A stretch of DNA of 64,000 bases from Bacillus niameyensis (GTDB lineage Bacteria > Bacillota > Bacilli > Bacillales > Bacillaceae_C), in the NCBI RefSeq assembly GCF_001375535.1, contig NZ_LN831197.1, positions 3,460,184-3,524,183 on the forward strand, written 5' to 3'. The notes under the pieces were generated by a model. The model was given only the letters and a program-made list of their open reading frames with translations. It ran no database searches and was not told where the DNA came from. The position numbers and the translations under genes were made by a program. Positions 18,645 to 48,180 of this stretch are shown here, in pieces; the first letter of the stretch is position 1, and the number at the start of each line of letters is the position of its first letter.

Positions 18645-18659
18645 ATGGTTGTGATAAAA

Positions 18660-22190: not shown

Positions 22191-23471
22191 ATGAAACTTT
22201 GTACAATGGGACTAGGATATATTGGATTACCTACTTCTATTATGTTTGCTAAACACGGCGTTGAGGTTGTTGGAGTTGACGTTCGTGAAGATGTAATTGA
22301 ATCATTGAATTCTGGGAAAATTCACATTGAAGAACCTGGTTTACAAGAAGCTCTAACTGAAGTGATCGAAAATAATAAGTTTAAAGCATCTTTAATGCCA
22401 GAAAAAGCAGATGCTTTTATTATTTCTGTTCCATCACCTAATAATGATGATTTATATAAATCTTGTGATCTATCAATGGTTCTATCAGCTGTTAACAGTG
22501 TTATACCATTTGTAGAAAAAGGAAATGTAATTATTGTAGAATCAACAATTGCACCACGAAGTATGGACGATTATGTACAACCATTAGTTGAAAATGCAGG
22601 CTTTACAGTAGGTAAAGATATATTTTTAGTTCATTGTCCTGAAAGAGTGCTTCCTGGACAGATTTTGCATGAACTTATTTATAACAATAGAATTGTTGGT
22701 GGAATTACCCCTGCTTGTACAGAAGCTGGCGCTAAAGTTTATGGAACGTTCGTTAAAGGTGAACTAATTAGAACAGATGCAAAAACAGCGGAAATGTCAA
22801 AGCTTATGGAGAATACCTTCCGTGATGTGAACATTGCACTTGCCAATGAACTAACGCAAGTGTGCAATGAGCTAGATATTAACGCACTAGATGTAATTGA
22901 AATGGCTAATAAACACCCAAGGGTAAATCTTCATTATCCTGGTCCAGGTGTTGGTGGTCATTGTTTAGCAGTAGATCCGTATTTTATCGTTGCAAAAGCA
23001 CCAGAAACAGCAAAACTTATAAATCTATCACGGAATATAAATACATCCATGCCAGAATATGTTGTCGAAAATATTAACACTCTTATGGAAAATGAGGGTG
23101 GTAAAGTAATTACATTGTTTGGTCTAACATACAAAGGTAATGTAGATGATATCCGTGAAAGTCCAGCAATGGAAATTTATGATATTCTTCGAGCACAACA
23201 AAACTATAAAATTAGAACGTTTGACCCTCATGTTAAAGGTGCTATTGTTATGGAAAATGTTGAGGATGCCGTTAAAAATTCGGATTTAATTGTGATTTTA
23301 ACAGACCATAACGAATTTAAAGAACTTGATTTTACAAAACTTTCAGGAATGAAAAATAAACGTATATTAGATACGAAAAACATTGTTGGAAACACACCAA
23401 AAGACTTTGAATATATTAATTTTGGTAATATGTATGAATTCACTAAGAAAAAAGTTCTTTTAACAAACTAG
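22191..23471 (+). CDS. wecC: UDP-N-acetyl-D-mannosamine dehydrogenase
   Basis: A 426-residue UDP-sugar 6-dehydrogenase that oxidises UDP-ManNAc to UDP-ManNAcA with two NAD. The Rossmann start MGLGYIGLP, IHIEEPGL, CPERVLPGQI, RTDAKTAEMSKLMENTFRDV and ANKHPRVN match WecC closely; the catalytic Cys is in GVGGHCLAVDP and the C-terminal domain has GLTYKGNVDDIRESP. The substrate would come from MnaA at 37.3 kb. ATG with GGAGG upstream. Its presence shows that this locus makes a uronic-acid polymer in addition to polyol-phosphate teichoic acid. A terminator follows. Confidence 0.93.
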   Translation: MKLCTMGLGYIGLPTSIMFAKHGVEVVGVDVREDVIESLNSGKIHIEEPGLQEALTEVIENNKFKASLMPEKADAFIISVPSPNNDDLYKSCDLSMVLSAVNSVIPFVEKGNVIIVESTIAPRSMDDYVQPLVENAGFTVGKDIFLVHCPERVLPGQILHELIYNNRIVGGITPACTEAGAKVYGTFVKGELIRTDAKTAEMSKLMENTFRDVNIALANELTQVCNELDINALDVIEMANKHPRVNLHYPGPGVGGHCLAVDPYFIVAKAPETAKLINLSRNINTSMPEYVVENINTLMENEGGKVITLFGLTYKGNVDDIRESPAMEIYDILRAQQNYKIRTFDPHVKGAIVMENVEDAVKNSDLIVILTDHNEFKELDFTKLSGMKNKRILDTKNIVGNTPKDFEYINFGNMYEFTKKKVLLTN

Positions 23472-23562: not shown

Positions 23563-25020
23563 GTGAAAAAACCATTAGATCGGGTTACAGAAGCCTATTA
23601 TGGAGATATGGGCATAGAATTTGCTAATGAAGTAAGAAACAGGATTCATTGGATTTGCGCACATGCAGAAGGAGAATCTATTTTAGACGTCGGATGTTCC
23701 CAAGGAATTGCGTCCATTATTTTAGGAAGAGAAGGAAAACATGTTTTAGGAATTGACCTTTTAGATGAGGCAATAGAATTTGCTAATCAGTCGCTTGATC
23801 GTGAAGATAAAAGCACGAAAAACAATGTGAAATTTGAAGTGGCAAATTTTATGAACTATGATTTCGGGAATCAACAGTTCGACTCAATCATTATTGGAGA
23901 AGTATTGGCAAATATTACTGATCCGAAGAGATTTTTGAATAAAGCAAAGACTTTATTAGTTGAAGGCGGTTCAATTATTGTAACTGTCCCTTTTGGGGTT
24001 AATGATTATTTCGGTCACAAAAAGATATATTATTTAAGTGATTTATTAGAACTACAGAAAGAATCACTTGTTATAGATGAACTGGAATTTATCGAGAAAA
24101 GTGTTGGTGTTGTATTTAAGAACAATGTTGAATCTGCACCATTATTGTTAGATGAACATTTAACTGAAAAGTTAGAATTCATGTTTTATACGAAAGAGAG
24201 AAAGCTCATAACTGATATTCAAACTAAGCATAAAGTGATTGAAAACTCGGAAGAAAATGTTCAATCATTAAAAAAGGAAATAAATAAAGATGATAGCGAG
24301 AATAACGAATATCGGAAAAATTATTCAGAGTTAGAAGACTTTAAAAATACTGTTTTGGCTAAAGAAGAGCAAATCATTCAACAGAATAAAAATTTAATTC
24401 AGGAAAATATGGAAATAAAGCAATTATTGAATGAGCGTCTTAATAAGATCCAATCTTTTTATACCTCTAAAGAAAATCAATCAAATTTTGAACCTCAAAA
24501 TGAGCAAACAATAAAACCTGAACAAAATATGACTCAAAGTGAATTAGCCGATTTAATCAATGTAGGGAATATGGCTAAGATTAGTAAAAAGGAAAAGGTC
24601 CAGGTACAGTCCGAACTATTGCAAGCCTATGAAAAAGAGGAAAAACTGTTAAATAAAATAATAGACTTGCAAAATGAGCTTGAAAGTTTAAAAAACAATA
24701 CGAATAATACGCTAGAGGAAAACAAAACATTAAAAGCAAATTTAAACAAATACCAAGGGGAAAAAGAGACACTAAAAGCTAAAAATGAAGAATTACTTAA
24801 CCATATTAAACTTATTGAAAGTCAGATTATAGTTGACAAAAAGGAAAAGATTAATGTACAGGGTCATCTTTTTGAAGCCTATGAAAAAGAAGAAAGACTG
24901 CTTAAATCCTATCAAAAACTATTAAATAAGTATAATGCCTTGAGTAATTCGAAATTGGGCAAAGTGACGCTAGCTTATTGGAGAAAGAGAGCTGGGAAGA
25001 AAACAGTAAGGAAGGGGTAA
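23563..25020 (+). CDS. SAM-dependent methyltransferase fused to a long coiled coil
   Basis: Residues 1-200 form a class I methyltransferase: ILDVGCSQGIASIIL is motif I (SAM binding), VLGIDLLDEAIEFA motif II, and FDSIIIGEVLANITDPKRF the motif IV region. Residues about 215-460 are rich in Glu, Lys, Gln and Leu with heptad spacing and no stops in helical propensity, so a long coiled coil, ending in a basic tail KLGKVTLAYWRKRAGKK. In the E. coli O9a system WbdD combines a methyltransferase (and kinase) with a coiled coil that sets chain length for ABC export; this protein has the same order without a kinase, beside two ABC exporters. A ruler/terminator role is inference. It starts at GTG behind ATAGGAG, six bases before the next gene. 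Confidence 0.75.
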   Translation: MKKPLDRVTEAYYGDMGIEFANEVRNRIHWICAHAEGESILDVGCSQGIASIILGREGKHVLGIDLLDEAIEFANQSLDREDKSTKNNVKFEVANFMNYDFGNQQFDSIIIGEVLANITDPKRFLNKAKTLLVEGGSIIVTVPFGVNDYFGHKKIYYLSDLLELQKESLVIDELEFIEKSVGVVFKNNVESAPLLLDEHLTEKLEFMFYTKERKLITDIQTKHKVIENSEENVQSLKKEINKDDSENNEYRKNYSELEDFKNTVLAKEEQIIQQNKNLIQENMEIKQLLNERLNKIQSFYTSKENQSNFEPQNEQTIKPEQNMTQSELADLINVGNMAKISKKEKVQVQSELLQAYEKEEKLLNKIIDLQNELESLKNNTNNTLEENKTLKANLNKYQGEKETLKAKNEELLNHIKLIESQIIVDKKEKINVQGHLFEAYEKEERLLKSYQKLLNKYNALSNSKLGKVTLAYWRKRAGKKTVRKG

Positions 25021-25026: not shown

Positions 25027-27759
25027 TTGGATATTCAGTCTATACAGAGAAGATTAGAAACTATAAATAAGTTGAAGGAAAAAGTATTAATCGATATTGA
25101 TGCCGAAAAAAAGGCAATATCGGACTTACATTCATTCTTAAAGACTAAAAAAAAAGCCCAGCTAAATAACACTAATACAAAACCTAATTTACAATCTAAA
25201 AAGGTTGAAAAAAAGCAGCCAGATCCTGAAGAGCTTGAGAAGAAGATAGCATATCTTAAAGTAAGAGATAAATTAAGTGATGTTAATTTTTTTGAAACTG
25301 TTAAACCTTTATTGGACCAGCTTCCTGATAGTAATGGGAGCCGATATTACGATAAAATCAAGACTAATATTGGCATTATAGCTGACGAATTTTTATTTAA
25401 TTCTTTTAAGGGAACAGCAAATTTCTTCTATATTGAAAGAGATAATTTCAAAAAGCATAAGGGGAAATTAGATGTCTTATTAATTGCAACAGCTTGGAAA
25501 GGACTGAACTTTGAGTGGAAAGGTTTAGGTAATCCAAAGATAAAACGACATCGTCAAGATTTGTATAAAATTATCGACTTTTACAGATCCCAAGGAACAA
25601 AAATAGTCTTTTATTCAAAAGAGGATCCTGTAAACTATGAAGTATTTATTGATATCGCCAAACAGTGTGATTATATTTTTACTACCGCAGAAGAAAAAGT
25701 GGAGAGTTATAAAAAGGATTGTAAAAATGATAAGGTGTTTCTGTTAGAGTTTGGCGTAAATCCTTTATACCATAATCCAGTTGGAATCAAAAAATTTCCG
25801 AAACAAAAAGAAGTCCTATTTGCAGGGTCTTGGTATAACAAGTATCCACATCGGCAAAAGGATACTAGAATGATTTTTGATGGAATTATTGATGCAAATA
25901 AAAGTTTGAAGATCATAGATAGAAATTATGACTTTAAATTAGCTCAATACTTTTTCCCAGAGGAGTATTTAAAATATGTTTCACCAGCTGTACAGCATGA
26001 ATATTTACAAAAAATGCATAAGATTTATAATTGGGCTATCAATCTGAACAGTATTCAAGAAAGTAATACGATGTTCGCGAATCGAATCTATGAATTGCAA
26101 GCATTAGGTAATATTTTACTCTCAAACTATAGTGTTGGAGTAAATAATAAATTTCCAAATGTTTATTTAATTCACGATAAAAATGAAATACGAGAGATCT
26201 TTGAGAGTATGACTGAGGAAGAGATCTTTGAACATCAGGTTTATGGAATTAGACGAGTAATGACTAGTGAAACCACATTTCAAAGAGTCAATAGTCTTCT
26301 TGAAAAGGTAGGAATTGATAGTTCAATAACAAGTAGGAAAGTTGCTGTTTTAGTAAAAGAAAAGACAGAACAAATTAACAGGATGTTTGAGAGTCAAACC
26401 TATTCAGACAAGAAGCTATTTACTGAAGATGAATTTACAGAAAAACTAAAATCAAACTATGACTTTATAACTTTCTTCGCCCCTTCTAAATATTATGGAG
26501 AGTTTTATTTGGAGGATATGGTTAATGGATTTAAGTACACTAATTCAGACTATGTTACGAAAAGCTCCTATTATAATGGAAATAAGATTATACAAGGAAC
26601 AGAGTTTGATTATGTAGATTTGATGGAGGACAAAAGTAGAACCCTATTTTGGAGTAGTGCTTTTACACTAAATCAATTAAAAGACTTTAATGGAAAAACT
26701 AAATTGTTAAACGGATTTAGCATTGATCGGTTTAATTTCAATGAAGTTAGAAATGAAAAAGTTAAAGCTAAAAAGAATTATCAGCTGTCCGTTATAGTGC
26801 CGACTTATAACAATGGAGAACATTTATTAAACAAATGTTTTAATAGTTTAAAAAGAAGCTCTATGTTTGAGGATATGGAGATCATAATTGTTGATGACGG
26901 TTCTACTGATGAAAAGACTCCTAAAATAGTAAAATATTTAGAGGGTAAATTCAATAATGTTAGAACATACTTCTACAATGATGGCGGAAGTGGAAGTGCT
27001 TCGCGTCCGAGAAACAAGGGATTCGAATTAACGAGTTCACCATATATTACGTATTTAGATCCTGATAATGAAGCGATTAATGATGGTTATACTCAATTAT
27101 ATAAGCAGGTAGTTAAAGGAAAACATGATATGGCTATCGGAAATATGCTTAGAATTGATACAAAACCATTAAATTTTGATTATTATAAGACAGCAATGCA
27201 ATTCTATGGTGGCGACACAATTACAAAAAATGTAAAAGAGTATTTAGTGAACACTCAATTTAAGGCGATGAGTATTCAAGCGTTGATTGTAAAACGTGAA
27301 GTGATAGGTAATAACTCCTTGAAAATGGTGGAAGGTGCTGTTGGACAAGATACGATCTTCTTCCAAGAATTATTGCTGAATTCAAGTAAAACAAAAGTCA
27401 TCAATGTTCCAATTCATGTATATTATGCTGCAGTTAGTGGTTCAGCCGTAAATACTATTACTAAAAAATTCTTTGAGAAATATTTGAAGCTAGAGAAATA
27501 CAGATACAAAATGCTTAAAGAAAATAATCTTTTAGATGAGTATATTGAAAAAAGATTTGAGTATTATTTTGAGAATTGGTATTTGAAAAAGTTAAAGTTA
27601 GTTGTGAAAGAGGATGTAATTCCATCAGTACAGTTATTAGGAGATATACTAACCCTGTATGAAAATGACTATCACAAGGAAAACACTTCTGTTGACCAAT
27701 TTTTGAAACTATTTAAACTGCAAAATATTAATCATATTATTAAACAGTATATAGAGTAG
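25027..27759 (+). CDS. Bifunctional glycosyltransferase: CgeB-like GT plus GT2
   Basis: A 910-residue protein. Residues 1-70 are a charged helix; about 110-430 resemble the CgeB/DUF3880 glycosyltransferases (VLLIATAWKGLNFEWKG, VLFAGSWYNKYPHRQKD, FANRIYELQALGNILLSNYS); about 586-830 form a GT2 domain (LSVIVPTYNNGEHLLNKC, IIIVDDGSTD, and YLDPDNE as the metal-binding acidic motif). It probably adds two different sugars of the repeat unit. The TTG start is preceded by AAGGGGTAAGG. It is tightly linked to the methyltransferase gene. A coiled-coil N-terminus could dock on that partner (inference). Confidence 0.8.
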   Translation: MDIQSIQRRLETINKLKEKVLIDIDAEKKAISDLHSFLKTKKKAQLNNTNTKPNLQSKKVEKKQPDPEELEKKIAYLKVRDKLSDVNFFETVKPLLDQLPDSNGSRYYDKIKTNIGIIADEFLFNSFKGTANFFYIERDNFKKHKGKLDVLLIATAWKGLNFEWKGLGNPKIKRHRQDLYKIIDFYRSQGTKIVFYSKEDPVNYEVFIDIAKQCDYIFTTAEEKVESYKKDCKNDKVFLLEFGVNPLYHNPVGIKKFPKQKEVLFAGSWYNKYPHRQKDTRMIFDGIIDANKSLKIIDRNYDFKLAQYFFPEEYLKYVSPAVQHEYLQKMHKIYNWAINLNSIQESNTMFANRIYELQALGNILLSNYSVGVNNKFPNVYLIHDKNEIREIFESMTEEEIFEHQVYGIRRVMTSETTFQRVNSLLEKVGIDSSITSRKVAVLVKEKTEQINRMFESQTYSDKKLFTEDEFTEKLKSNYDFITFFAPSKYYGEFYLEDMVNGFKYTNSDYVTKSSYYNGNKIIQGTEFDYVDLMEDKSRTLFWSSAFTLNQLKDFNGKTKLLNGFSIDRFNFNEVRNEKVKAKKNYQLSVIVPTYNNGEHLLNKCFNSLKRSSMFEDMEIIIVDDGSTDEKTPKIVKYLEGKFNNVRTYFYNDGGSGSASRPRNKGFELTSSPYITYLDPDNEAINDGYTQLYKQVVKGKHDMAIGNMLRIDTKPLNFDYYKTAMQFYGGDTITKNVKEYLVNTQFKAMSIQALIVKREVIGNNSLKMVEGAVGQDTIFFQELLLNSSKTKVINVPIHVYYAAVSGSAVNTITKKFFEKYLKLEKYRYKMLKENNLLDEYIEKRFEYYFENWYLKKLKLVVKEDVIPSVQLLGDILTLYENDYHKENTSVDQFLKLFKLQNINHIIKQYIE

Positions 27760-27780: not shown

Positions 27781-27823
27781 GTTCTCAAAGTAACATATGG
27801 TATTTATATGTTACTTTGAGAAC
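27781..27823. terminator. Perfect 18-bp hairpin between the GT and the giant fusion gene
   Basis: Arms at 27781-27798 (GTTCTCAAAGTAACATAT) and 27806-27823 pair perfectly around a seven-base loop. There is no T run on either side, so it may be an RNA processing or stability element. The rest of 27760-28027 is AT-rich leader with several TATAAT-like boxes and no gene. Confidence 0.5.
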
Positions 27824-28027: not shown

Positions 28028-31000
28028 ATGAATAAATATTTATCTTCTCTCTATCGAAGAGGATTCTTATTAACAGATATTAAAAAACCTCAATTTACCG
28101 ATAGTCAAACTCAACAAGTTATTGGCAATTGGAAAATTGAAGTGATTTCAAAATATAATTTGTTTTTTGATCCGAATATTTTATATAGCGTTAGTGAAAA
28201 AAATGGTATTAAGGTTATAATTTTGGGCCATGTTTTAAACCCATTTGATGGAACTATATCGATTAATAATATCGCAAACACTTTAGCCGTGAAAAAGGGT
28301 ATTTCTGAAGGGGAGTTTTTAGACTATCTTGATCAGCTCTCTGGGAGATTTGTAATCTTTACAGATACTTCCGATTGTACCGAAATTTATCATGATGCAT
28401 GTGCAACAAGAAGTGTTTATTATGATATAGAAAATGAACTTACAGCTATTTCTTCACATTCGATGCTTATTGCTGAATTGTTTGATTATAAAGAATCGAA
28501 GGCATCAGTAGAATTAATGAAACATCCAGATTTTAAGAAAATAAGGTATTTTCCAGGGGTGCAATCCCCATTTGAGGAAATTAGACCTTTAACACCTAAT
28601 ACAAAGTATATTATAGAAAAAAGAGATGTTCAAAGGATATTTCCAAGGAAACCGTTAATTATAGCCAGAGATGTGAATAAAGAGGTTAAAGAGATTATTT
28701 CCATAATGCAACAACAAGCTAAGTTGTTAGCTCTAGATAATAAATTAAGTATTTCCTTAACTGCTGGCATTGATAGTAGAGTAACATATTCAATATTCAA
28801 AGATGTTAAAGGTGATATAGATTACTTTACGCATACTAACAAGTCAAATGCAGAAAGTTATAATGAAGATATTAACATAGCAAAAAAAATGGTATCTTTA
28901 AGTCACTCTCCATACAAGGTTTACGAATATGGATTGGATAATGAACAAGTTGATATGAAAGATTTTTATTCTATATGGAAAAAAAACATTGGAATGAACC
29001 GAGGGTCTGTCTATTTATTTAAATTGTATGCAGATGAATTTCCAAAAGACCGTTTGCATATACGATCAAATTTGGCGGAAATTGGTAGGGTTTATTATAA
29101 AAGGAACAAAATGAAACTTAGTGCAAAAAGCTTAGCTAAGTATTATACGAGAACTTCCTTAAGAAATGATAGTGAGATCATTAATGGATTCCAAGCATTT
29201 ATAGATATAACTAATTTCAAAAGTGAATTTCTTTATAATTATGATTTTACAGACATGTTTTATTGGGAACACAGAATGTGTTTATGGCATAGTCTAATCC
29301 TTCTGGAAAGCGACATGGCGTATGATACCCACATTATATACAATAATCGGAACTTACTGTCTAAAATACTCTCTATTCCTTATGAGATTCGTAATTCCAG
29401 TGGATTATTTTTAAAGATAATTCAAGAAACATGGCCTGAATTATTAGCATTCCCAATTAATGGGGAAAGTCCATCATTAGATCGGCTAAATAGTAAAACT
29501 CCCGTATCTAATAAAGAGTTATTTAAAAGAACTCAGCCAGATAAGGCAACATTATCCATAGCAGAAATGATCATGAACAATGAGGTTTACCTGTTTAAAA
29601 ACTGGAAGCCCTTTAAGTTTGCAGATGAATTGCAATGGGATGAAGATCCTTACAATGATAGAACATGGAAGTTTTATCTACATGAGATTAGAATGGTAAG
29701 TTACTTGGTTAACGCTTATGAGTTAACTAATGAAAGGAAATACCTCGAGAAAGCAAAATGGTATATCGAAAGCTGGATGAGAAAGAACCCGTCTCCAGAG
29801 GAAAATGTTAGTGACTGGTCTTGGAGTGGCCATGGAACGGCGAATAGATTATTAAATTTATTATATTTCTGGTGCTATTATAAAGATGTTGAAAATATAG
29901 ATAATGACTTTGAAATGAATTTTAAAAGGCTTCTTCACACTCATGGACTCTTTCTAGCAAATGATAATAATTACGAAGATTATAATCATGGAATTTTTCA
30001 GGATCAGGCTCTAATGGAGCTCTCAGTTTTGTTTCCTGAGTTTACCAAAAGTCGTGAATGGCTAAAAAAATCTGTTGATCGATTAACTATGAGAATGAAT
30101 AAGGATTTCACAATTAATGGGGTTCATAAGGAACATAGTCCTGGATATCATTTGTTAGTTATGAAGTTATTTATGTCAATAAAGAAATTTATGGATTTCT
30201 ACGGGGTTCCCTATTCGGATCAGATTAAAAACAAGTTTAAACACATGCAGGATTTCTTAGCGGTTCTAACAGATAAAGATGGAAGGCTTCCTTTATTAGG
30301 GGATACTGGTCTATCAAAGGTTTTGAGGAGTATTGATGAAAGTGAGATAATTAGCGAGTATTGGTTAAATAAGGTTACAAGAGGAAAGAAAGGAAGGAGC
30401 TTAAAGGATTCCTTTTTCCCCTATCCAGAGGCCGGGATATCCGTATATAAAAAACAAGATATTGAATGGCTTTTCACCTCGGCATTTCATTCTACAGTCC
30501 ATAAGCATGCTGATGATTTAGCGTTCTTATTAAGTGTAGATAAAACTGATTATTTTGTAGATAGTGGTCGGTACAACTATAAAGAGAAAGATCCATATAG
30601 GAAATATTTTCGTAGCGTTTTTGCTCATAATACAATAGCTGTTGATGGAAAGACATATACCCTCTCTAAAGGACAAGTAGGTAAATCCCAAATAATAGAT
30701 TATGGTCATAGCAAGACATACACGTATGTGCGTGGCAGACATGAACTGTATGAAGGGATTTCAATTGTTAGGTTACTTATACAGATTGATAACGGTCCTA
30801 TTATAATTCATGATAAAATCTATTCGGATAAAAAACATAAATATTCACAAATATTTAATATAGGTGTCGATGTCGAAATAACTGAAAAAGATAAAAGCTC
30901 AATTTTATTAAAAAGTAAAATTGACGATTCATTTGTACATTTAAAGCAATTATATGAAATTAGAGACTTTAATTTATTTGAAGGTAATACGGACCCAATT

Positions 31001-32401
31001 AGGGGTTGGCAATCATTTGATTTCAATCAGAAGCATCCTATTAAATCAGCCCATTTTATAAATGAGGGGGATTTTGCGGAGTACTTAACTCTTATAAACA
31101 TTAATAATAACTCTATAGATCATGTACAAAGTGAATTACGAAATAATAAAATAACTTATAAATTATTTAATGATAATACGGAAGTCAATCGCATTTCTAT
31201 TGATGAGCCAAATGACATTCGTAACAGTAAGGTGACACTAATGGGGGATAAACCAATTATAAATTCAGTTTCGTTATCTACAAAGAGTGATAGGGTAGAA
31301 ATAGGCCAACCATTAACTGCGACAATACATGCAACTGGAAAAAACTTAACATATGCTTGGTATATCTATCACAATGATGAAAGAATAGAAGTGAAAAGAT
31401 ACTCATCAGATTTGAAAAATGTAACAATAAAGTTAGAAAAAGAAGGAACCTATTATTTAAAGGCTTATGCAAAAAATGAACAGGGACAAAAAGTGTCAGT
31501 GAATACAAGTCAAATAACTGTGTTTAAAGACAGTTATTTGCAAACAAAAAAATATAAATCAATCTTTGATTTATATAATCATAAAGAGATTGCAAATAAA
31601 AGTCTTGACCAATTCGAGATAGATTTTAAGGACCCAACAATATTAAGTGTTAATAAGGATGACGTGATTTACGATTTATTAATTAAAACAAATAAGAAGT
31701 CTCCCTTATTGTATGTTATAGGTTCGGGTGCATACAATGCAAGTGAATTTAGCCCTCCTATTTTCCAACGTCATTCATGGTCTAAAGACTTAGATGCGAA
31801 TGTTATTTATTATAATGATCCTACCCTATACTTAGGGGAAATTAATTTAGGGTGGGGACAAGGTACCGAGCAAGACTTCTATATTGAAAGTTTAGCCACT
31901 ATAATTATGCAGGTGGTAACAAATCTTAATATTGATAATGAAAATATTATATTTTATGGAAGTTCAGCAGGCGGATTTATGTCACTTATGTTAGGTGGAT
32001 TCTTAAAAGGGAGTTCTGTATTAGTAAATAATCCACAAACTATTGTCCCGAATTATTATAAATCTTTTGTTAATGCTATGTATAAGGTTAGTTATCCGAA
32101 TATGAAAGTCGAGGAAATCACTCAAAAGTTTAACGAAAGGTTAGATGTAACCTCTTTTTATAAAAAAATTGGATATATGCCTAACATTTATTATTTGCAA
32201 AATGCAGCTTGTTTTCATGATATGGAAAATCATTATCAACCTTTTGTAAAAGGCTTGGAGGATTTCTTGAAGCTTGGGAAAAGCGGGCAATTTATTTCCC
32301 ATTTATATTGGGATGAAAAAAGTCAACATAATCCTTTGGAAAAAGTAGAAACCTTAAATTCCTTAAGAAGGGCTACAGAATTATTTATAGATAAGGCATA
32401 A
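28028..32401 (+). CDS. Four-domain fusion: AsnB-like / heparinase II-III / Ig-like / alpha-beta hydrolase
   Basis: 1457 residues without signal peptide. (1) About 1-500: asparagine synthetase B-like; the N-terminal amidotransferase half has no Cys at position 2 (MNKY), so glutamine would not be hydrolysed, while the PP-loop SLTAGIDSR (about 243-251) could activate a carboxylate with ATP, as in beta-lactam synthetase. (2) About 540-1060: alginate-lyase-like helical toroid and heparinase II/III sheet, with YNHGIFQDQ, EHSPGYH and VHKHADDLAF carrying the expected His/Tyr. (3) About 1075-1165: Ig-like domain (LTYAWYIYHNDERIEVK). (4) About 1190-1457: alpha/beta hydrolase with nucleophile elbow GSSAGG (about 1311). 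ATG behind AGGGGA. Likely a multifunctional decorator of the ManNAcA polymer; activity is unproven. Confidence 0.75.
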   Translation: MNKYLSSLYRRGFLLTDIKKPQFTDSQTQQVIGNWKIEVISKYNLFFDPNILYSVSEKNGIKVIILGHVLNPFDGTISINNIANTLAVKKGISEGEFLDYLDQLSGRFVIFTDTSDCTEIYHDACATRSVYYDIENELTAISSHSMLIAELFDYKESKASVELMKHPDFKKIRYFPGVQSPFEEIRPLTPNTKYIIEKRDVQRIFPRKPLIIARDVNKEVKEIISIMQQQAKLLALDNKLSISLTAGIDSRVTYSIFKDVKGDIDYFTHTNKSNAESYNEDINIAKKMVSLSHSPYKVYEYGLDNEQVDMKDFYSIWKKNIGMNRGSVYLFKLYADEFPKDRLHIRSNLAEIGRVYYKRNKMKLSAKSLAKYYTRTSLRNDSEIINGFQAFIDITNFKSEFLYNYDFTDMFYWEHRMCLWHSLILLESDMAYDTHIIYNNRNLLSKILSIPYEIRNSSGLFLKIIQETWPELLAFPINGESPSLDRLNSKTPVSNKELFKRTQPDKATLSIAEMIMNNEVYLFKNWKPFKFADELQWDEDPYNDRTWKFYLHEIRMVSYLVNAYELTNERKYLEKAKWYIESWMRKNPSPEENVSDWSWSGHGTANRLLNLLYFWCYYKDVENIDNDFEMNFKRLLHTHGLFLANDNNYEDYNHGIFQDQALMELSVLFPEFTKSREWLKKSVDRLTMRMNKDFTINGVHKEHSPGYHLLVMKLFMSIKKFMDFYGVPYSDQIKNKFKHMQDFLAVLTDKDGRLPLLGDTGLSKVLRSIDESEIISEYWLNKVTRGKKGRSLKDSFFPYPEAGISVYKKQDIEWLFTSAFHSTVHKHADDLAFLLSVDKTDYFVDSGRYNYKEKDPYRKYFRSVFAHNTIAVDGKTYTLSKGQVGKSQIIDYGHSKTYTYVRGRHELYEGISIVRLLIQIDNGPIIIHDKIYSDKKHKYSQIFNIGVDVEITEKDKSSILLKSKIDDSFVHLKQLYEIRDFNLFEGNTDPIRGWQSFDFNQKHPIKSAHFINEGDFAEYLTLININNNSIDHVQSELRNNKITYKLFNDNTEVNRISIDEPNDIRNSKVTLMGDKPIINSVSLSTKSDRVEIGQPLTATIHATGKNLTYAWYIYHNDERIEVKRYSSDLKNVTIKLEKEGTYYLKAYAKNEQGQKVSVNTSQITVFKDSYLQTKKYKSIFDLYNHKEIANKSLDQFEIDFKDPTILSVNKDDVIYDLLIKTNKKSPLLYVIGSGAYNASEFSPPIFQRHSWSKDLDANVIYYNDPTLYLGEINLGWGQGTEQDFYIESLATIIMQVVTNLNIDNENIIFYGSSAGGFMSLMLGGFLKGSSVLVNNPQTIVPNYYKSFVNAMYKVSYPNMKVEEITQKFNERLDVTSFYKKIGYMPNIYYLQNAACFHDMENHYQPFVKGLEDFLKLGKSGQFISHLYWDEKSQHNPLEKVETLNSLRRATELFIDKA

Positions 32402-32404
32402 GGA

Positions 32405-32446
32405 AAAAAATGCCCTTAGGTAGATTTATATGATCTACTTAAGGGC
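32405..32446 (-). terminator. Terminator of the free-standing heparinase-type gene
   Basis: Arms GCCCTTAGGTAGAT and ATCTACTTAAGGGC pair with one mismatch; on the minus strand the stem is followed by ATTTTTTTCC. It also lies just after the plus-strand fusion gene and may serve both. Confidence 0.75.
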
Positions 32447-32495: not shown

Positions 32496-34178
32496 TTACA
32501 TTACAAATGAGAAATAATTCCCATCGATATTTAAACTTAATTGACTATTTTCTAATTCAAAATGAATGTCGGTCACTCTTGTAGTTTCTTTCCCCAATCT
32601 AATTAAGGTTAAAAAATGAACTTTATTATTTTTTGCCATATATTCAAGTTTATGTGTTTTACTTAATTTACTGAAGGTTTCTGAAACAACAGCATTTGGC
32701 TTTTCTGTATTTCCTTTATGAATTGTTAATTTGTCTGGAGCAATTAGTTGTTCTATATGCACCTCATCATTTTGGGATTTTAACACGGTATGGTTTATGC
32801 CTTCCTTGACGATTTTTACCTTTGGACTCAATGTAAAGAATTGGCTACATTTTTGGACTGTCTTACTAGAAACTTTATCAAGTATAATCAAAACGTTGGG
32901 CTTAATAAAACAAATAGCTCGTTCAATTGATGTCCCTTCATAACCTAGATTAATCCCTTTCACATAATCATAGGTCCTGTTTGAGGAAAAGGCAGTAATA
33001 GAAATTCTATCCTTAACTACTTCTGGATCAGGGTGTACATAATTTTTGTTGTTTATAACAATCGTATTATGAGCCCTTGCGGATCGTACATATCCTCGTT
33101 CGGGAGAACTTCCATAGCTATGCTTTCCTGAATCAACAAAAATATCGTGACCATTATAAAAGAGGTTAATTGATAAATCATCAAAGTGTTTATGAGTTAA
33201 TGTACTGTAGCCACATACAAATGAAAGCCATGTTGAATTTATTGGACTTTGATTATTCTTTGCTTGTAATATAGATATACCTGCCTCTAAATCAAAAAAA
33301 GAAGTATACTTCTTTTCCTTTCTGTTAAGTTTTTTATGGCTTGAATCTCCAATCATCGGTAGATAACCATCTGGCTTCAGAATAAAGCTATAATATTCCG
33401 CAATTAATTTAAACTTACCTATAATCTCTTTACCAAGTGTTAGGTCATATTTATTCAGAAAGTCTTCAATAGAATGAAAAAGCCGTTCAACTACTAAGTG
33501 ATATTCTGGGGAGTTTTCTAGGTGTACTCCTTTTGAACTGTAGCTACTATAAAAGTTATCCTTCAATCTAAATAAACCTTTATTTTTCCAGTTATCTGCA
33601 TTAGGGTAATTAAAAACAACACCGGCTTGAATCAATGCTCGATCCATCATAATACCATGATTGTTTTTTCTGTAGTATGTATCCTTGTATAAAAATTCTG
33701 CATGTTTAATGATTAGTTCATCAAGATCAGGAAAAGGTAAGTTAATTCTCTTAAGACATAAAAATAGATATATTAAATTATGTGTTCTGTATGCGGAAGT
33801 ATGGTCATACCAAATAAATTTGTTATCTTTATCATTTGAATCAAATTCTAGCCAATCCTTGACAATTTTGATAGCCTTTTTCAAGTAAATAGTGTCATTA
33901 GTCGCTTCAAAGGCATTTCCTAGATAACTAATTGGCATTAAAGAATGAAGGTATAATTGATAGGTATTGGAACTAACATAATGTTTATAATCCCAATCGA
34001 TTCCATTGCTAAAATCTAAGATATCGAGTGATTCTTGGAGTACAAAGTGATTATCTAGGATTAATTGTGCATTTTTTTCAGTATTACTATTCGCATCAGT
34101 TAATCTTAAAATATTGTCAAGATTTATTACTCCAAATTCATTTAATATATCTTGGTTTAACTTTAAAAGATTTGTCAA
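32496..34178 (-). CDS. Heparinase II/III family protein, cytoplasmic
   Basis: 560 residues with an alginate-lyase-like N-terminal helical half (KNNHGIMMDRALIQAGVVF) and a heparinase II/III beta half (TLTHKHFDDLSINLFYNG, VRSARAHNTIVINNKNY). It resembles the middle of the 1457-residue protein, but ENSPEYH replaces EHSPGYH, so one His of that motif is changed. No signal peptide, so it should act in the cytoplasm on a biosynthetic intermediate. Enzymes of this fold are polysaccharide lyases, and the related dermatan-sulfate epimerase fold shows C5-epimerisation is also possible. The TTG start has GGGAG nine bases upstream. It is convergent with the fusion gene and divergent from tagGH copy 2. Confidence 0.75.
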   Translation of the reverse strand: MTNLLKLNQDILNEFGVINLDNILRLTDANSNTEKNAQLILDNHFVLQESLDILDFSNGIDWDYKHYVSSNTYQLYLHSLMPISYLGNAFEATNDTIYLKKAIKIVKDWLEFDSNDKDNKFIWYDHTSAYRTHNLIYLFLCLKRINLPFPDLDELIIKHAEFLYKDTYYRKNNHGIMMDRALIQAGVVFNYPNADNWKNKGLFRLKDNFYSSYSSKGVHLENSPEYHLVVERLFHSIEDFLNKYDLTLGKEIIGKFKLIAEYYSFILKPDGYLPMIGDSSHKKLNRKEKKYTSFFDLEAGISILQAKNNQSPINSTWLSFVCGYSTLTHKHFDDLSINLFYNGHDIFVDSGKHSYGSSPERGYVRSARAHNTIVINNKNYVHPDPEVVKDRISITAFSSNRTYDYVKGINLGYEGTSIERAICFIKPNVLIILDKVSSKTVQKCSQFFTLSPKVKIVKEGINHTVLKSQNDEVHIEQLIAPDKLTIHKGNTEKPNAVVSETFSKLSKTHKLEYMAKNNKVHFLTLIRLGKETTRVTDIHFELENSQLSLNIDGNYFSFVM

Positions 34179-34442: not shown

Positions 34443-34665
34443 GATACGTATAAAGAGTTTCAAAAGATGCCAAATTAATATATTATGGAACCAACAATTC
34501 TAGTATTTCAAATAAAAAATGGAAGGATGCTCTCTTCCATTTTTTGTTTAAAATACTTTATTCGATAGAAGTTCAATTTGTGTTATTATATAATAGGTAT
34601 TTTAAGATATTATTACCTCTTGGATTTGGCAAAAAATGTACTCAACGAAGGAAGTAGACATTATA

Positions 34666-35469
34666 ATGAGATTTGTTATTCAGATAATAAAAGAACAATT
34701 GTCCAATTTTAGTTTAATACTGAGATTAGCAAGTTTTGATATTAAAGGTATGTATCAGATGCATTATTTAGGAGTACTATGGCAGTTTTTAAACCCAGCA
34801 ATTCAAATTGGAGCTTATTGGTTTGTCTTTGGAATTGGTATTAGAAGCGGCCGTCCAGTAGATGATATCCCATTTTTTGTTTGGTTGTTTGTAGGGTTAG
34901 TTCCGTGGTTTTTTATTAATCCATCGATAACACAAGGATCTAATAGTATTTATACTAAAGTGAACTTAGTTTCAAAAATGAAATTTCCAGTTAGTGTGCT
35001 TCCCACAATTACGATTATGAAAAATATGTATAATTTCTTAATGATGTCAATTATTTTAGTGTTAATTCTTGCCTTAAATAAAATTAATCCAGGAATTTAT
35101 TTATTACAATTACCTTATTATGTTTTTGCATTGTTAGCCTTTTTATTCTCAATGACTTTATTGTGTTCAACTATATCGGTTATGATAAGGGACTTTCAAA
35201 CAGCGATTAATTCAATGATCAGAATGTTATTCTTTTTAACTCCGATAGTATGGAATGCAAGTAGGCTAGATCCCCAACTATTAAATATATTAAAACTCAA
35301 TCCAATTTATTATTTGATTGATGGGTTTAGAAATACCATTTTGTTTAAAACCTGGTTCTTTGAGGACCTTGGATTGACTTTTTATTTTTGGAGTATAACA
35401 TTATTAATTTTATTTATTGGTTCTTATATGCATATAAAATTCAGAGATAAATTTGTTGATTATTTGTAA
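34666..35469 (+). CDS. tagG: Teichoic acid ABC transporter permease TagG (copy 2)
   Basis: A 267-residue ABC-2 permease, homologous throughout to the copy at 17.8 kb (KEQLSNFSLILRLASFDIKG, MHYLGVLWQFLNPAIQI, LKLNPIYYLIDGFRNT). About six membrane helices. I start at the ATG at 34666, which aligns with copy 1 and follows AAGGAAG; a longer reading from 34636 adds ten unaligned residues. It pairs with the long TagH 15 bases downstream. Lying inside the WecC locus, it is the best candidate exporter for the ManNAcA polymer, while copy 1 sits with the polyol-phosphate polymerases (inference). Confidence 0.9.
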   Translation: MRFVIQIIKEQLSNFSLILRLASFDIKGMYQMHYLGVLWQFLNPAIQIGAYWFVFGIGIRSGRPVDDIPFFVWLFVGLVPWFFINPSITQGSNSIYTKVNLVSKMKFPVSVLPTITIMKNMYNFLMMSIILVLILALNKINPGIYLLQLPYYVFALLAFLFSMTLLCSTISVMIRDFQTAINSMIRMLFFLTPIVWNASRLDPQLLNILKLNPIYYLIDGFRNTILFKTWFFEDLGLTFYFWSITLLILFIGSYMHIKFRDKFVDYL

Positions 35470-35484: not shown

Positions 35485-37116
35485 ATGAAGCCAAAAGTAA
35501 AACTGGAAGGCATATCGAAGACTTACCAGTTGTATAATAAAAGGTCTGATAAAATTCGGGATATTTTTCTCCCAAACAAAAGGAAAAATAATCGAACATT
35601 TCATGCTTTAAAAAATGTAAGTTTTGAAATATTTGAAGGAGAAACAGTTGGGATTGTGGGGATTAATGGATCAGGTAAATCCACACTTTCCAACATTTTA
35701 GCCGAGGTTATTCCACCATCTTCAGGAAATATGGAGATTAACGGTGAAACTTCACTTATTGCTATTAGTGCAGGGTTAAATAATCAATTATCTGGCTTAG
35801 AAAATATTAAGTTAAAATGTTTGATGCTTGGATTGAAGAAAGATGAGATTTCAGAGTTAACGCCTCAAATTATTGAGTTTGCGGATATTGGACAATTTAT
35901 TGAACAACCTGTAAAAAACTACTCTAGCGGCATGAAGTCTAGGCTTGGTTTTGCCATTTCTGCTTACACTAATCCGGATATTCTAATAGTAGATGAAGCA
36001 CTATCCGTAGGCGATAAGACGTTTTATAAAAAATGTGTAGACAAGATTGACGAATTTAAAGCTAGTGGGAAAACTATTATATTTATCAGCCATTCTATAG
36101 GGCAAATGCGATCAATTTGTGATAGGGTTCTTTGGCTACATTATGGTAGTTTAAAGGAATTCGGAAATTCCAAAGAAGTTCTTGATAAATATGATGAATT
36201 TATTAAATGGTTTAATACTCTTTCAAAAGAAGAAAAGGGAAAATATAAAAGAGAAAAGCTAAATGAACAATCTGTGATAAATACAAATGAATTTATTAGT
36301 CGGAGAAGTAAAAGTAAAGTCTCCAACAGAGGATTCATTGTGCAAGTTTGCGTGTTACTTATGCTTACTCTTTTTAGTGCTCTCTTCATGTTTGTAGATA
36401 AGTCACCATTAGCTATCTACAAAGGTATTTATGATCGATTTGATGATTCCAGTCCAAGTACAGATAATCTAGGGGAAGAAAAAAATTACGAACCCGAAAT
36501 AAATAAGATCGATAAAGAAGGAAATATAGTTACACGATCAGCTATTCTTTATGAGGATGAGCAAATGACAAGACAGATGGAATCAGTACAATTCTCTGAA
36601 CCTGTTTATGTCATTGAACAAATCGATAATGTATATAAAGTGAATTATCAGGATGAAACGGCTTATATAAATTTCGATGATGTTTCATTGTCCAACACTT
36701 TTGCTAGTATAGCAGATATAAGGACAATAGATTTTTACCCTATCTTACCTGCATCACTACAATCGTCCTATGAATTCTTTATGGCTCATGTAGGTTTAGA
36801 TTATGAAACAATTAAAGGAAAACTTAGAGGATTGACCGAGGAAACGGAAGATCAGGGTCTTACAGTTCTTACTTATGGGAATTATGATATAAGTTTGCGC
36901 TTTAATAAAGATAACGTAGCAACCAATGTAATAGTTGAAAATATTCAAAATGATAATGAATTTCTAAATGAGTTGCGTTCACAAGCAAATGTTCAATCTA
37001 AAGACGGAAAGATGTTTACTTTGAATATTGAGGGATTCGATGTATTCGTAGATATAGACAAGCAGATATTAGAACTTACACTACAGAAGAATAACGATGA
37101 TTCAGGCACTCCATAA
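35485..37116 (+). CDS. tagH: Teichoic acid ABC transporter ATP-binding protein TagH (copy 2, long form)
   Basis: 543 residues. The NBD (1-250) has [32 protein letters not shown] and FISHS. A membrane helix at about 283-303 ([21 protein letters not shown] region) leads to an outer domain (304-543) that begins with an SH3-like fold ([33 protein letters not shown]) and ends in a second unassigned domain. B. subtilis TagH also has this layout. The outer part could contact polymer or wall. ATG after GGAGG. It is followed by a terminator, so tagGH copy 2 forms a two-gene operon. Confidence 0.92.
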
Positions 37117-37137: not shown

Positions 37138-37348
37138 TTAATCAGTCTGACTTGTGAGATTCTGCGTTTCATGATCTAGTCCATAAGCAGTCAATCCTTT
37201 ATATCTTTTATTTCATGATATTATTTGATACTATAGACTTTAGTCATATCATGGCCTTTTTTGTCCATATTAGTCGACAACGACTCCTCCCACTGTTATG
37301 TATTATTTTTACTTACACAAATTACTAAATAAGGAACGTGATCAATTA

Positions 37349-38440
37349 ATGAAAAAGGTAATGGTAGTATTCGGGACAAGACCCGAAGCTATAAAGATGT
37401 GCCCTTTAGTAAAAGAATTAAAAACTCGTGATCAATTAGAGACAATTGTTTGTGTTACAGGGCAGCATCGTGAAATGTTAGATCAAGTTCTGGAGGCATT
37501 TCATGTAGAGCCAGATTATGATCTATCCATTATGAAATCGAAACAAACATTATTCGATGTTACAGTAAACATTTTGGAAAAAATGAAATCTGTTTTGGAA
37601 GAAGTTCAACCAGATGTCGTTTTAGTTCATGGAGATACTTCAACAACGTTCGTAACAGCGTTAGCATGTTTTTATTTACAGATTCCTGTGGGACATGTTG
37701 AGGCAGGATTAAGAACGTATAATATTTACTCTCCTTATCCTGAGGAATTTAATCGTCAAGCTGTTGGAATCGTTGCAAAATATCATTTTGCACCAACGGA
37801 AATGTCGAAAGAAAATCTCGTTAAAGAAGGTAAAGACCCTGCTACAATTTACGTTACGGGAAATACCGCGATTGATGCTCTTAAAACAACTGTTGGAGAA
37901 GCATATACTCATGAACAGTTAGACTGGGTTGGGGATAGTAAATTGATTATGATTACTGCCCATAGAAGGGAAAACCTCGGCGAACCTATGAAGAACATGT
38001 TCAGAGCTATCAAAAGAATTGTAGACGAACATCCTGATATTAAAGCGATCTACCCAATACATATGAATCCAGTAGTAAGAGAAGCAGCAAACGAAATATT
38101 AGGGGACTGTGATCGTATCCGAATTATTGAGCCTTTAGAGGTTATCGACTTCCACAACTTCCTTTCTAGATCATACATGATCTTAACGGATAGTGGAGGT
38201 ATTCAGGAAGAAGCTCCGAGCCTTGGTAAGCCTGTTTTGGTTATGCGCGACACAACTGAACGCCCTGAAGGTATCGCTGCAGGTACATTAAAACTTGTTG
38301 GAACTGATGAAGAGGTTATTTATAAAACATTTAAGTTGTTACTAGAGAATCAAGCTGAGTACGAAAAAATGAGCCATGCAAGCAATCCTTACGGTGATGG
38401 ATTGGCAAGTAAACGAATAGCAGATATATTAGAAGGGTAA
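37349..38440 (+). CDS. mnaA: UDP-N-acetylglucosamine 2-epimerase (non-hydrolysing)
   Basis: A 363-residue enzyme converting UDP-GlcNAc to UDP-ManNAc. It begins KKVMVVFGTRPEAIKMCPL, with HGDTSTTFVTALACF, GHVEAGLRT, PEEFNRQ, ITAHRRENLGEP, SGGIQEEAPSLGKPVLVMRDTTERPEG, all hallmarks of the family; the GTRPE, HRREN and E-rich segments hold UDP and the catalytic acids. I start at ATG 37349; the frame runs on upstream to 37298 without a better site. Its product is the donor for TagA and the substrate of WecC, so this gene links the teichoic acid and ManNAcA pathways. Confidence 0.95.
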   Translation: MKKVMVVFGTRPEAIKMCPLVKELKTRDQLETIVCVTGQHREMLDQVLEAFHVEPDYDLSIMKSKQTLFDVTVNILEKMKSVLEEVQPDVVLVHGDTSTTFVTALACFYLQIPVGHVEAGLRTYNIYSPYPEEFNRQAVGIVAKYHFAPTEMSKENLVKEGKDPATIYVTGNTAIDALKTTVGEAYTHEQLDWVGDSKLIMITAHRRENLGEPMKNMFRAIKRIVDEHPDIKAIYPIHMNPVVREAANEILGDCDRIRIIEPLEVIDFHNFLSRSYMILTDSGGIQEEAPSLGKPVLVMRDTTERPEGIAAGTLKLVGTDEEVIYKTFKLLLENQAEYEKMSHASNPYGDGLASKRIADILEG

Positions 38441-38688: not shown

Positions 38689-39684
38689 ATGTCAGTTTTT
38701 AAGAATGAGGAAGTATTTAATGGAGAAGTAGATGTGAAATATCTTTTTCAAAAGTCCTATACAAAGACAGATGGATTAGTTATCGTATTCTCAGCTTTTC
38801 AAGCTGAAGGTAAACCCGCTAATTATAATTATGTTCGAACTTTAGAGGAATTTGACTGCAATAAACTTTATATATTAGATGATTTTGGTGAGGCTCCTTC
38901 TTATTATCTATGCAATAGTAGAGAGTTTTCTATTGAGCGATCGGTTATAGCGCTTATTCGTAAAATTGTGAAGGAAAATGAAATTAGTAAGATTATATCA
39001 AGTGGTTCGAGTAAAGGGGGATTCGCGGCTTTATATTACGGCATAAAATATGGCTTTGATCATGTTATTTCAGCTTCTCCTCAATATTTATTAGGAGACT
39101 ACCTTCTTGAACAAGCAGAGGCAAAACAAGTTGGAAAAAAGGTTGTCGAATTTATAAGTGGAGGTACCGAGGCAGAGGATCACGAATATCTTAATAATAT
39201 AATGGCAAGTATGATACGTGAAACGAAAAATAACCCAGACATATTTATACATTTAGGAGTAGGAGAGCATCATTATCGAAATCATGTTATACCGATGATA
39301 AAGTTATTTGATGAAATAGGAATAGCATATGAATTAAATTTGGGAAGTTACGATAAACACAGTGATGTTTTGATCCATTTCCCTCCTCTGTTGAAAGAGA
39401 AAATTAGAGAACTATTGAAATTTCCACTTATATCTTTAGAACAGATAAATAGGGAAGAGAATAAGCAAGACACACTTTATGAGTTTAAAGTTACCACTGA
39501 AATGAAAAATAAAGTAGCCTGGTATGTTTATAAAGATAACAAAATCATTGATAAATTTGGATATGCGAAAAATAAGACTATCAAATTATCATTTAAGGAA
39601 AAAGGAAAGTATATGGTTAAAGTATTTGTGAAAAATGAGGGAAACTTAAAGGTTTCCACAATTACTAACTCTATAACGGTTTGA
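38689..39684 (+). CDS. Alpha/beta hydrolase with C-terminal Ig-like domain
   Basis: 331 residues, no signal peptide. The hydrolase part (about 1-240) has the nucleophile elbow SSGSSKGGFAALYYG (Ser near 108) and candidate catalytic His in YDKHSDVLIHF. The C-terminal about 85 residues form an Ig-like sandwich (NKVAWYVYKDNKIIDKFGY, GKYMVKVFVKNEG). The hydrolase half is homologous to the minus-strand protein at 47.1 kb (shared YNY-[VI]-R-[TS]-L and GSSKGG with LLGDYL), and more distantly to the end of the 1457-residue fusion. Similar folds occur in Asp2 and XcbB/CpsF capsule proteins, where acyl transfer is one role; an acetyl-transferase or esterase acting on the polymer is inference. ATG after TGGAGG. 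Confidence 0.7.
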   Translation: MSVFKNEEVFNGEVDVKYLFQKSYTKTDGLVIVFSAFQAEGKPANYNYVRTLEEFDCNKLYILDDFGEAPSYYLCNSREFSIERSVIALIRKIVKENEISKIISSGSSKGGFAALYYGIKYGFDHVISASPQYLLGDYLLEQAEAKQVGKKVVEFISGGTEAEDHEYLNNIMASMIRETKNNPDIFIHLGVGEHHYRNHVIPMIKLFDEIGIAYELNLGSYDKHSDVLIHFPPLLKEKIRELLKFPLISLEQINREENKQDTLYEFKVTTEMKNKVAWYVYKDNKIIDKFGYAKNKTIKLSFKEKGKYMVKVFVKNEGNLKVSTITNSITV

Positions 39685-47057: not shown

Positions 47058-48041
47058 TTATTGTATTACCTTCAATATATTTTCCTTTAACAATGACGGA
47101 AAGTGTTGAACTAACTCATCATGTTTTTCATAATCTCCTAAATCTAAACTAATATTTTTTAAATTTAGCTCTTTTGTGAATTCCATAAAAGGTAGCACAT
47201 GATTTTTATAATGCGGTTCACCTTTACCTACATGAATCATTACATTTGGTTCGTGTTCACTTTCTTTAACAGCATCAAACAACACTGAATTTAACCACTT
47301 AATATTTTCTTCAGTGAGATCTCCAGCTAAATACTTAAAAATGGGCCTTAAAATGGAGTTGGGTTTATCCACGTCCAGCCTACCAGCTGATAAATAATCG
47401 CCTAAAAGCGTTTGGGGACCACCTACTATTGCACCCCCGTATTTACCTCTATATGTAAAATATAAGGAAGCAAATCCTCCTTTACTAGAACCAATACAGA
47501 GTACATTTTCTTTCCTAATCCCTCGAGAAATTCTTACATCTTCAATTAGTTTTAACACATTATCAGCTATTGAAAATGTTTTGTTTGGCCCTAGATAATA
47601 GGATGTTCGTGTATCTTGATCCGATCCATAATCATCCTTTATATAGAGACGATTAACTTTTACGTCTTTTAGAGATCTGATATAATTATAACCTGGAGTT
47701 CTACTAATGCCTTGGAATCCAACAATTAAGTAGTCGCTTGATTCAACAGGATAAAACAAATATTTAATGCCTTTGGTAGTCAGTTTCTCTACTCTAAGTG
47801 CTTTATATTTTACTTTATCTGTCCACTTTTTATTTACCTTAACTTGATATTTATATGTGTATCTTATATGACTTTCTAATTGGGATACTGGCAGCTCACA
47901 TTTATCCTTAGCTTTTATAACTATCAAATGAGAGAATTCCTTTTTAATTTCATTATAAATAACTAATCTTACATCTTCGTCAATGCCAAACTCCTTATAA
48001 GGTTCAAAGGTTAGCACCTGTTCTTTTGCTTCGTTAATCAT
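47058..48041 (-). CDS. Alpha/beta hydrolase with N-terminal beta domain (paralogue of 38.7 kb gene)
   Basis: 327 residues, no signal peptide. The N-terminal about 95 residues are a beta-rich domain (LESHIRYTYKYQVKVNKKW) that is probably Ig-like. The hydrolase part has YNYIRSLKDVKVNRLYIKDD, the nucleophile elbow CIGSSKGGFASLYF, PQTLLGDYL and a candidate His in YEKHDELVQHFPSLL. It parallels the plus-strand protein at 38.7 kb with the accessory domain on the other end. Likely an esterase or acyltransferase in polymer decoration; not demonstrated. I start at ATG 48041, six bases after GGGGAGG; a GTG at 48056 lies before that site. It has its own terminator and faces away from the lipoprotein gene. 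Confidence 0.7.
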   Translation of the reverse strand: MINEAKEQVLTFEPYKEFGIDEDVRLVIYNEIKKEFSHLIVIKAKDKCELPVSQLESHIRYTYKYQVKVNKKWTDKVKYKALRVEKLTTKGIKYLFYPVESSDYLIVGFQGISRTPGYNYIRSLKDVKVNRLYIKDDYGSDQDTRTSYYLGPNKTFSIADNVLKLIEDVRISRGIRKENVLCIGSSKGGFASLYFTYRGKYGGAIVGGPQTLLGDYLSAGRLDVDKPNSILRPIFKYLAGDLTEENIKWLNSVLFDAVKESEHEPNVMIHVGKGEPHYKNHVLPFMEFTKELNLKNISLDLGDYEKHDELVQHFPSLLKENILKVIQ

Positions 48042-48180
48042 AAACATCCTCCCCACAATAAAAAATACATCACACCAATTGATATAGTAAACACTACTAA
48101 GTTACCATTTTAGTATAAAAAAAGAAAATTTATGAGCATACGTGTTATAATGCGTTATATAAAATTTAGGAGGAATTTTT

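Follow-up and report, generated by a model that had tools for sequence, protein, structure and literature searches.

Carbapenam synthetase (CarA) and beta-lactam synthetase belong to the AsnB superfamily, carry no nucleophile Cys and are active without a glutaminase. Amino-acid amides of N-acetylmannosaminuronic acid (ManNAcA) are found in the Haemophilus influenzae type d capsule, and SacC/CsaC, the capsule O-acetyltransferase of Neisseria meningitidis serogroup A, acts on an N-acetylmannosamine (ManNAc)-phosphate polymer. Here we describe a gene in a 64,000-nucleotide stretch of Bacillus niameyensis DNA (the window) whose 1457-residue product joins an AsnB-like module that, like CarA and beta-lactam synthetase, lacks the glutaminase, a heparinase II/III (Hep) module, a Y_Y_Y/immunoglobulin-like (Ig) module and a SacC-like alpha/beta-hydrolase (Hyd) module.

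Four further systems serve as references; the sources marked as excerpts are cited for the portions available. WbpS/PGN_1234, an AsnB-family amidotransferase whose gene adjoins Wbp-type uronic acid genes, is needed for uronamide formation, as seen by deletion (PMC7468200, excerpt). The catalytic set of heparinase III, a member of polysaccharide lyase family 12 (PL12), is tabulated as Asn240/Tyr294/His424, that of heparinase II as His/Tyr/His (PMC12088678, excerpt). Dermatan sulfate epimerase 1 (DS-epimerase 1), which epimerises uronate within the polymer, has its fold and active site in common with heparinase II; minute changes have been proposed to convert lyase to epimerase (PMC8006597, excerpt). 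Asp2 of the accessory Sec system O-acetylates N-acetylglucosamine on GspB (PMC5578698, excerpt). WbpS and DS-epimerase 1 are likened to the window protein by description. All modules of this protein are of already known kinds; what looks undescribed is the way they are combined, the occurrence in polysaccharide loci of an AsnB branch without glutaminase, and the recurrent fusion of this branch to SacC-like domains. Searches of an open-access library gave no paper on the combination, which does not imply absence from print because most subscription papers lie outside that library.

Modules of the fused protein

The gene and its modules, all on the + strand, are as follows.

28028..32401, +, whole fused gene; ATG start, 1457 aa, N-terminus without signal-peptide-like character
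28028..29467, +, AsnB-like module, residues 1-480; N-terminal nucleophile (Ntn)-type domain without nucleophile Cys, plus ATP-pyrophosphatase (PP-ATPase) synthetase domain
28754..28780, +, PP-loop SLTAGIDSR, residues 243-251; G247 and D249 invariant in 21/21 alignment rows
29519..31201, +, heparinase II/III module, residues 498-1058; PF16889 4e-29, PF07940 8.7e-23; heparinase III 4mmi 2.7e-16
29984..29986, +, Asn653, equivalent by alignment of heparinase III Asn240; kept in 31/31
30146..30148, +, Tyr707, equivalent by alignment of heparinase III Tyr294; kept in 31/31
30500..30502, +, His825, equivalent by alignment of heparinase III His424; kept in 30/31
31313..31537, +, Y_Y_Y/Ig-like sandwich module, residues 1096-1170; PF07495
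31556..32398, +, SacC-like alpha/beta-hydrolase-fold O-acetyltransferase module, residues 1177-1457
31958..31975, +, nucleophile elbow GSSAGG (GXSXGG motif) with Ser1313

The open reading frame contains no internal stop over its 1457 residues, an AGGGGA motif lies shortly 5´ of its ATG, and the N-terminus lacks the hydrophobic stretch typical of secreted relatives. The gene is located well within a 4.67-Mb contig of a 4.68-Mb genome in 6 contigs, and its windowed G+C content stays between 0.29 and 0.35. A same-genus protein (G015) is collinear with residues 498–1455 at 65% identity; the AsnB-Hep junction is outside this span and is covered by no relative read. A first-pass annotation had proposed a single four-domain fusion and named, as refuting it, either domain searches without an AsnB or heparinase fold or an assembly error. 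The intact frame and the support for all four folds bear out the fusion, and the collinear relative makes such an error very unlikely. The domain assignments are strong, and we infer the chemistry of the protein.

A family profile and a confident structure model reveal the two-domain Ntn plus PP-ATPase fold of the AsnB superfamily in residues 1–480. Foldseek places carbapenam and beta-lactam synthetases nearest to this module, and the known enzymes nearest in fold make amides from amines. The SGGxDS-type PP-loop is present in a variant form, SLTAGIDSR, with TAG replacing SGG, and 24 alignment columns, including G247 and D249, are invariant across 21 sequences from distant bacteria. The N-terminal Cys nucleophile of glutamine-hydrolysing asparagine synthase is missing, as the first-pass annotation had claimed: residues 1–60 are free of Cys, and none of the 32 listed family frames, whose starts were chosen mechanically, has Cys as residue 2. 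The Pfam check suggested for this module failed, whereas the fold itself stands by family profile and structure model. With Asn_synthase (PF00733), the module stays unmatched up to E 5, and of the 21 family members three match at an E of 0.01 or less; neither Pfam, NCBIfam nor PHROGs reveals the module in the fused protein. SMC_ScpA, the sole Pfam suggestion (19.6 bits against a cut-off of 24.6), was dismissed on the structure model. Given the uronamide role of WbpS/PGN_1234 (PMC7468200, excerpt), the link to WecC described below and the fold, this Cys-less module, set beside WbpS by description, would join a uronate carboxylate to an amine. Sequence does not choose between the amidation and the aminoacylation that the first-pass annotation had named.

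The heparinase assignment is recovered by Pfam directly, with the N half at 102.5 bits (cut-off 22) and the C half at 81.5 bits (cut-off 24). In an alignment to Pedobacter heparinase III (2.7e-16; Protein Data Bank (PDB) numbers counted along the printed alignment), all three PL12 catalytic residues are retained as N653, Y707 and H825; their conservation was scored over 31 heparinase-fold proteins of the order, both window ones included. The module thus follows the heparinase III set rather than that of heparinase II (PMC12088678, excerpt). Unlike heparinase III, the window protein has no signal-peptide-like start and is fused to other modules, and it misses the HepC NCBIfam equivalog cut-offs by far (75.6 bits against 600 and 71.3 against 700). 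Because DS-epimerase 1 shares the heparinase II fold and active site, and minute changes are proposed to suffice (PMC8006597, excerpt), sequence cannot choose between lyase and epimerase.

Signal peptides were judged by eye plus a hydrophobicity count, with no predictor. In a tree of the 31 heparinase-fold domains, the window protein groups with G015 (100/100). The other five members of the enclosing 7-row group (87/93) are G007, again without a signal-peptide-like start, and L074, L075, L076 and L077, which do carry such a start. An 8-row group (100/100) contains five Hep-Hyd-Ig proteins without such a start, two of secreted type and one lipoprotein-like. Since Hep relatives occur on both sides of the membrane and nucleotide sugars are not outside, these enzymes most simply act on polymer rather than on nucleotide sugars.

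The Y_Y_Y module scores 30.7 bits with PF07495 when scanned alone (cut-off 26.6) and 24.6 bits within the whole protein. With 23 of the 30 first-look candidates scored, the genome yields at least three copies at E up to 1e-5, and each of these lies in the fused-gene locus: in the fused protein, in a Hyd-Ig protein (38689-39684) and in a small lipoprotein-like protein (48181-48519). As the module is found in cytoplasmic proteins and a probable surface lipoprotein of one locus, it is best read as a predicted polymer binder.

The alpha/beta-hydrolase fold of the C-terminal domain is supported by profile and structure. The Hyd family profile finds meningococcal SacC at 8.2e-19 (profile positions 29–255 of 268), and its best PDB matches are capsule-type enzymes, an O-acetyltransferase first. 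GXSXGG, the motif of capsule O-acetyltransferases (PMC7387560), is present as GSSAGG with S1313, an elbow of SacC/CssE type common to SacC and the Hyd module. H1402 is kept in 21/22 sequences and H1434 is present, the placement of the catalytic His and acid being uncertain. SacC is a stand-alone 255-residue PDB chain, in contrast to its fused counterpart in the window. Asp2 has a related fold (6lnw, 4.2e-8); Pfam Asp2 (PF16929, cut-off 28) does not list the C-terminal domain and gives the two other Hyd proteins of the window 23.0 and 20.3 bits. DPP4-type folds, which top the Foldseek list for a low-confidence Hyd/Ig model with TM-scores near 0.4, were taken as a generic alpha/beta-hydrolase signal. 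Because Hyd belongs with the capsule O-acetyltransferases, acetyl transfer appears likelier than hydrolysis, so that of the earlier "acylates or deacylates" the first half is favoured.

Shuffled relatives and the AsnB-like family

The modules recur in other assortments. The window order is AsnB-Hep-Ig-Hyd; G015, at the same locus position, has Hyd-Hep-Ig-Hyd, with a second Hyd in the AsnB place and no detectable AsnB. G133 encodes Hyd-Hep, and five genomes (G360, G266, G159, G286, G020) encode Hep-Hyd-Ig, the Hyd elbow not being found in the G159 protein. In G133 a stand-alone AsnB-like gene is located ~63 kb from the Hyd-Hep locus, and the modules therefore need not be neighbours. The exact window order occurs in its own genome only among 34 family genomes and in no other locus read; in tblastn searches of the whole protein against two annotated collections, at least 80% coverage is reached in 0 of 26 matching plasmid and 0 of 2 matching phage records. 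The first-pass annotation knew of no described protein with this order. Since partial versions recur, the protein is no isolated oddity but one assortment of a shuffled toolkit.

Among 348 genomes of the order (own included), Hep matches occur in at least 45 (E up to 1e-3) and Hyd matches in at least 32 (E up to 1e-5), both lower bounds because only the first few candidates per genome, up to 3 and 7, were scored. Both are present in 16 genomes against 4.1 expected if independent (hypergeometric 6e-8, relatedness ignored). In 11 of these 16, Hep and Hyd form one protein or are separated by no more than 0.8 kb; in the other 5 the distance is at least 20 kb or the two lie on different contigs.

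A six-sequence AsnB alignment was too varied to serve for a genome scan. The scan of named genomes gave 21 AsnB-like loci, including Bacillus, Exiguobacterium, Jiangella, Glycomyces, Oceanimonas, Polyangiaceae and Chitinophagales. We compared 33 AsnB neighbourhoods: 10 of the order (window included), 20 named, and those on three plasmid records, from Natrinema, Escherichia coli and Microvirga. One stretch of the order (L060) holds two AsnB-like genes, L092 was dropped as a duplicate of L058, four plasmid matches (Rubrobacter, three Rhizobium) are left out, and several stretches stop early at contig ends. WecC was sought in 32 neighbourhoods, all but the unannotated Microvirga stretch; annotation served for Natrinema and E. 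coli, and similarity to window proteins for the others. It is present in six: the window, the same-genus G288, Oceanimonas, Agrococcus, Arcanobacterium and an E. coli plasmid. The last four pass the uridine diphosphate (UDP)-ManNAc dehydrogenase equivalog cut-off; weak dehydrogenase matches in L061 (31%) and L103 (24%) were left uncounted.

Hyd occurs in 8 of the 33 neighbourhoods and is fused to AsnB in four, namely the window, two Jiangella loci and E. coli plasmid pCE1537-B. The plasmid fusion (L145 8026-10437) has the order Hyd-AsnB, the reverse of the window's, and lies 3´ of wecB and wecC in a capsule locus that includes an ATP-binding cassette (ABC) transporter; a single short hypothetical gene separates it from the wec genes. 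Its Hyd domain has an altered nucleophile elbow, and a megablast search of the E. coli genome collection gave no match to the fusion. Hep is found in only 2 of the 33 neighbourhoods, the window and G173. In the haloarchaeon Natrinema thermotolerans, the AsnB-like member (L144 8920-10479) adjoins dTDP-rhamnose and glycosyltransferase genes.

A proposed tailoring enzyme and its rivals

The fused protein is probably a multifunctional enzyme of the cytoplasm that tailors a ManNAcA-type polymer ahead of ABC export by amidation, O-acetylation and either epimerisation or trimming. To the observed folds, retained catalytic residues, gene context and recurrent fusion or adjacency, the following scheme adds a presumed substrate, nucleophile, reaction direction and order of steps. 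The substrate would be an acidic wall polymer, probably containing ManNAcA, with its precursor supplied by the MnaA-like epimerase and WecC-like dehydrogenase of the locus. The polymer would be assembled on a lipid carrier in the cytoplasm and exported as a whole chain by the TagGH-type ABC transporter, and the fused protein would work on it prior to export. The AsnB-like domain may adenylate a carboxylate, for which the one on ManNAcA is the simplest candidate, and couple it to ammonia or an amino acid as the amine, no glutamine being used. The heparinase fold would abstract the uronate H5, leading to C5-epimerisation or controlled cleavage, while the Y_Y_Y module would hold the chain and the SacC-like domain would move acetyl from acetyl-CoA onto a sugar hydroxyl. 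If so, a single protein modifies an acidic wall polymer in three distinct ways prior to ABC export, and the shuffled relatives of this protein form a natural series for assigning marks to modules.

A different role for the Hep module is possible, though we do not rate it as probable: it may be a true lyase for proofreading or recycling, which trims or destroys unexported or over-long cytoplasmic polymer, with AsnB and Hyd marking finished chains that are spared. In its favour, all three PL12 residues are retained, and the signal-peptide-like starts of L074, L075, L076 and L077 among its nearest relatives are as expected of lyases. However, several Hep members are fused to biosynthetic modules within a synthesis locus, and the sequence features tested do not separate lyase from epimerase, given the active site shared by DS-epimerase 1 (PMC8006597, excerpt). 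In another, rather unlikely reading, the acid activated by the AsnB-like domain is not the uronate but a small acid, such as an amino acid, which would end up on an amino or hydroxyl group of the polymer, perhaps by way of Hyd as an acyltransferase. The fusion of AsnB and Hyd in both orders in distant bacteria would suit such consecutive steps, but the best PDB matches of the Hyd profile are capsule-type enzymes with an O-acetyltransferase first, amide formation from amines is the reaction of the nearest known folds, and the WecC link favours the uronate carboxylate.

Less likely still is a catalytically dead AsnB-like domain with a docking or carbohydrate-binding role. Such a role would fit the absence of Cys at residue 2 throughout the 32 family frames and the additional Hyd that stands in its place in G015; the 24 invariant columns, G247 and D249 among them, and the activity of the Cys-less beta-lactam and carbapenam synthetases argue for a working enzyme. 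An assembly or annotation artefact uniting separate genes has a near-negligible probability: the restriction of the exact order to one of 34 family genomes and the AsnB-Hep junction that no relative read spans would be expected of it, yet the frame is stop-free on a single contig, its G+C content is even within the range given, and G015 is collinear across the remaining modules.

Beyond the tailoring enzyme proposed above, a wider reading is tentative. The glutaminase-less AsnB-like family, whose range extends from Bacillota and Actinomycetota as far as Gammaproteobacteria and haloarchaea, may constitute a new synthetase class that forms uronate amides (or amino-acid amides) on ManNAcA polymers and works as a unit with SacC-type O-acetyltransferases; the window lineage may have absorbed a uronan lyase/epimerase that close relatives secrete, shifting epimerisation or trimming from wall to cytoplasm. 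The family would then offer a glutamine-independent route to uronamides, one that Pfam misses in the window protein. With secreted and cytoplasmic heparinase-fold enzymes interleaved, the cell site of uronan epimerisation or trimming can be asked.

The surrounding wall-polymer locus

The remaining relevant genes of the window are as follows.

22191..23471, +, UDP-ManNAc dehydrogenase-like (wecC-like); TIGR03026 438.6 bits against cut-off 189.8, PRK11064 407 against 459
23563..25020, +, methyltransferase with long C-terminal tail
25027..27759, +, glycosyltransferase (family 2, GT2; weak DUF3880)
32496..34178, -, second, separate heparinase II/III protein (Pfam search), convergent with the fused gene
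34636..35469, +, ABC-2 permease adjoining TagH (TagG by position); PF01061 8.3e-15
35485..37116, +, TagH-type ABC ATPase; NF010066 326.1 bits against cut-off 320
37298..38440, +, UDP-GlcNAc 2-epimerase (MnaA-like), UDP-ManNAc source; PF02350 9.9e-125
38689..39684, +, separate Hyd and Ig protein of the same toolkit
47058..48056, -, further separate SacC-like Hyd protein
48181..48519, +, small lipoprotein-like protein consisting of the same Ig module; lipobox by eye

This gene content supports the proposed link to ManNAcA-polymer genes. The position "beside wecC" holds in the sense of one cluster, but two genes intervene, and the window wecC copy does not reach the UDP-ManNAc dehydrogenase equivalog cut-offs (PRK11064 407/459, NF040825 430.1/750), which are still its best equivalogs. 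A family search finds a glycosyltransferase also at 20868, and inspection of translations by eye suggests a second ABC permease/ATPase-like pair (17826-19448), a GT4-like gene at 19653 and tag-type genes further upstream. The gene series GT4, GT4, wecC, methyltransferase, GT2, tailoring modules, tagG, tagH, mnaA is seen again, complete or partial, in other genomes of the order, and it is the tailoring modules that vary. Between its Hyd-Ig gene and wecC, G171 carries a Hyd gene and a Hep gene whose product has a signal-peptide-like start; in G288, an AsnB-like gene occupies that place.

An inverted repeat with an 18-pair stem (27781-27823) is located in the gap upstream of the fused gene, and a second hairpin-like repeat (~32412-32446, judged by eye) lies between the convergent genes. 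A promoter scan was uninformative (95 found against 94.0 expected). The second window heparinase is intact, and its G015 relative (L072 14203-15569) is split into two frames. Single-module Y_Y_Y/Ig small proteins similar to 48181-48519 are present in L065, L072 and L085, and the same Ig module ends two proteins with a glycosyltransferase-like front, as judged by eye (L072 12509-13918, -; L073 14090-15529, +). L088 (9163-13701, -) and L087 (8763-11546, +) encode very large heparinase proteins of secreted type in which SH3-like segments, also judged by eye, are repeated, and the latter locus also has wecC, tagG and tagH matches.

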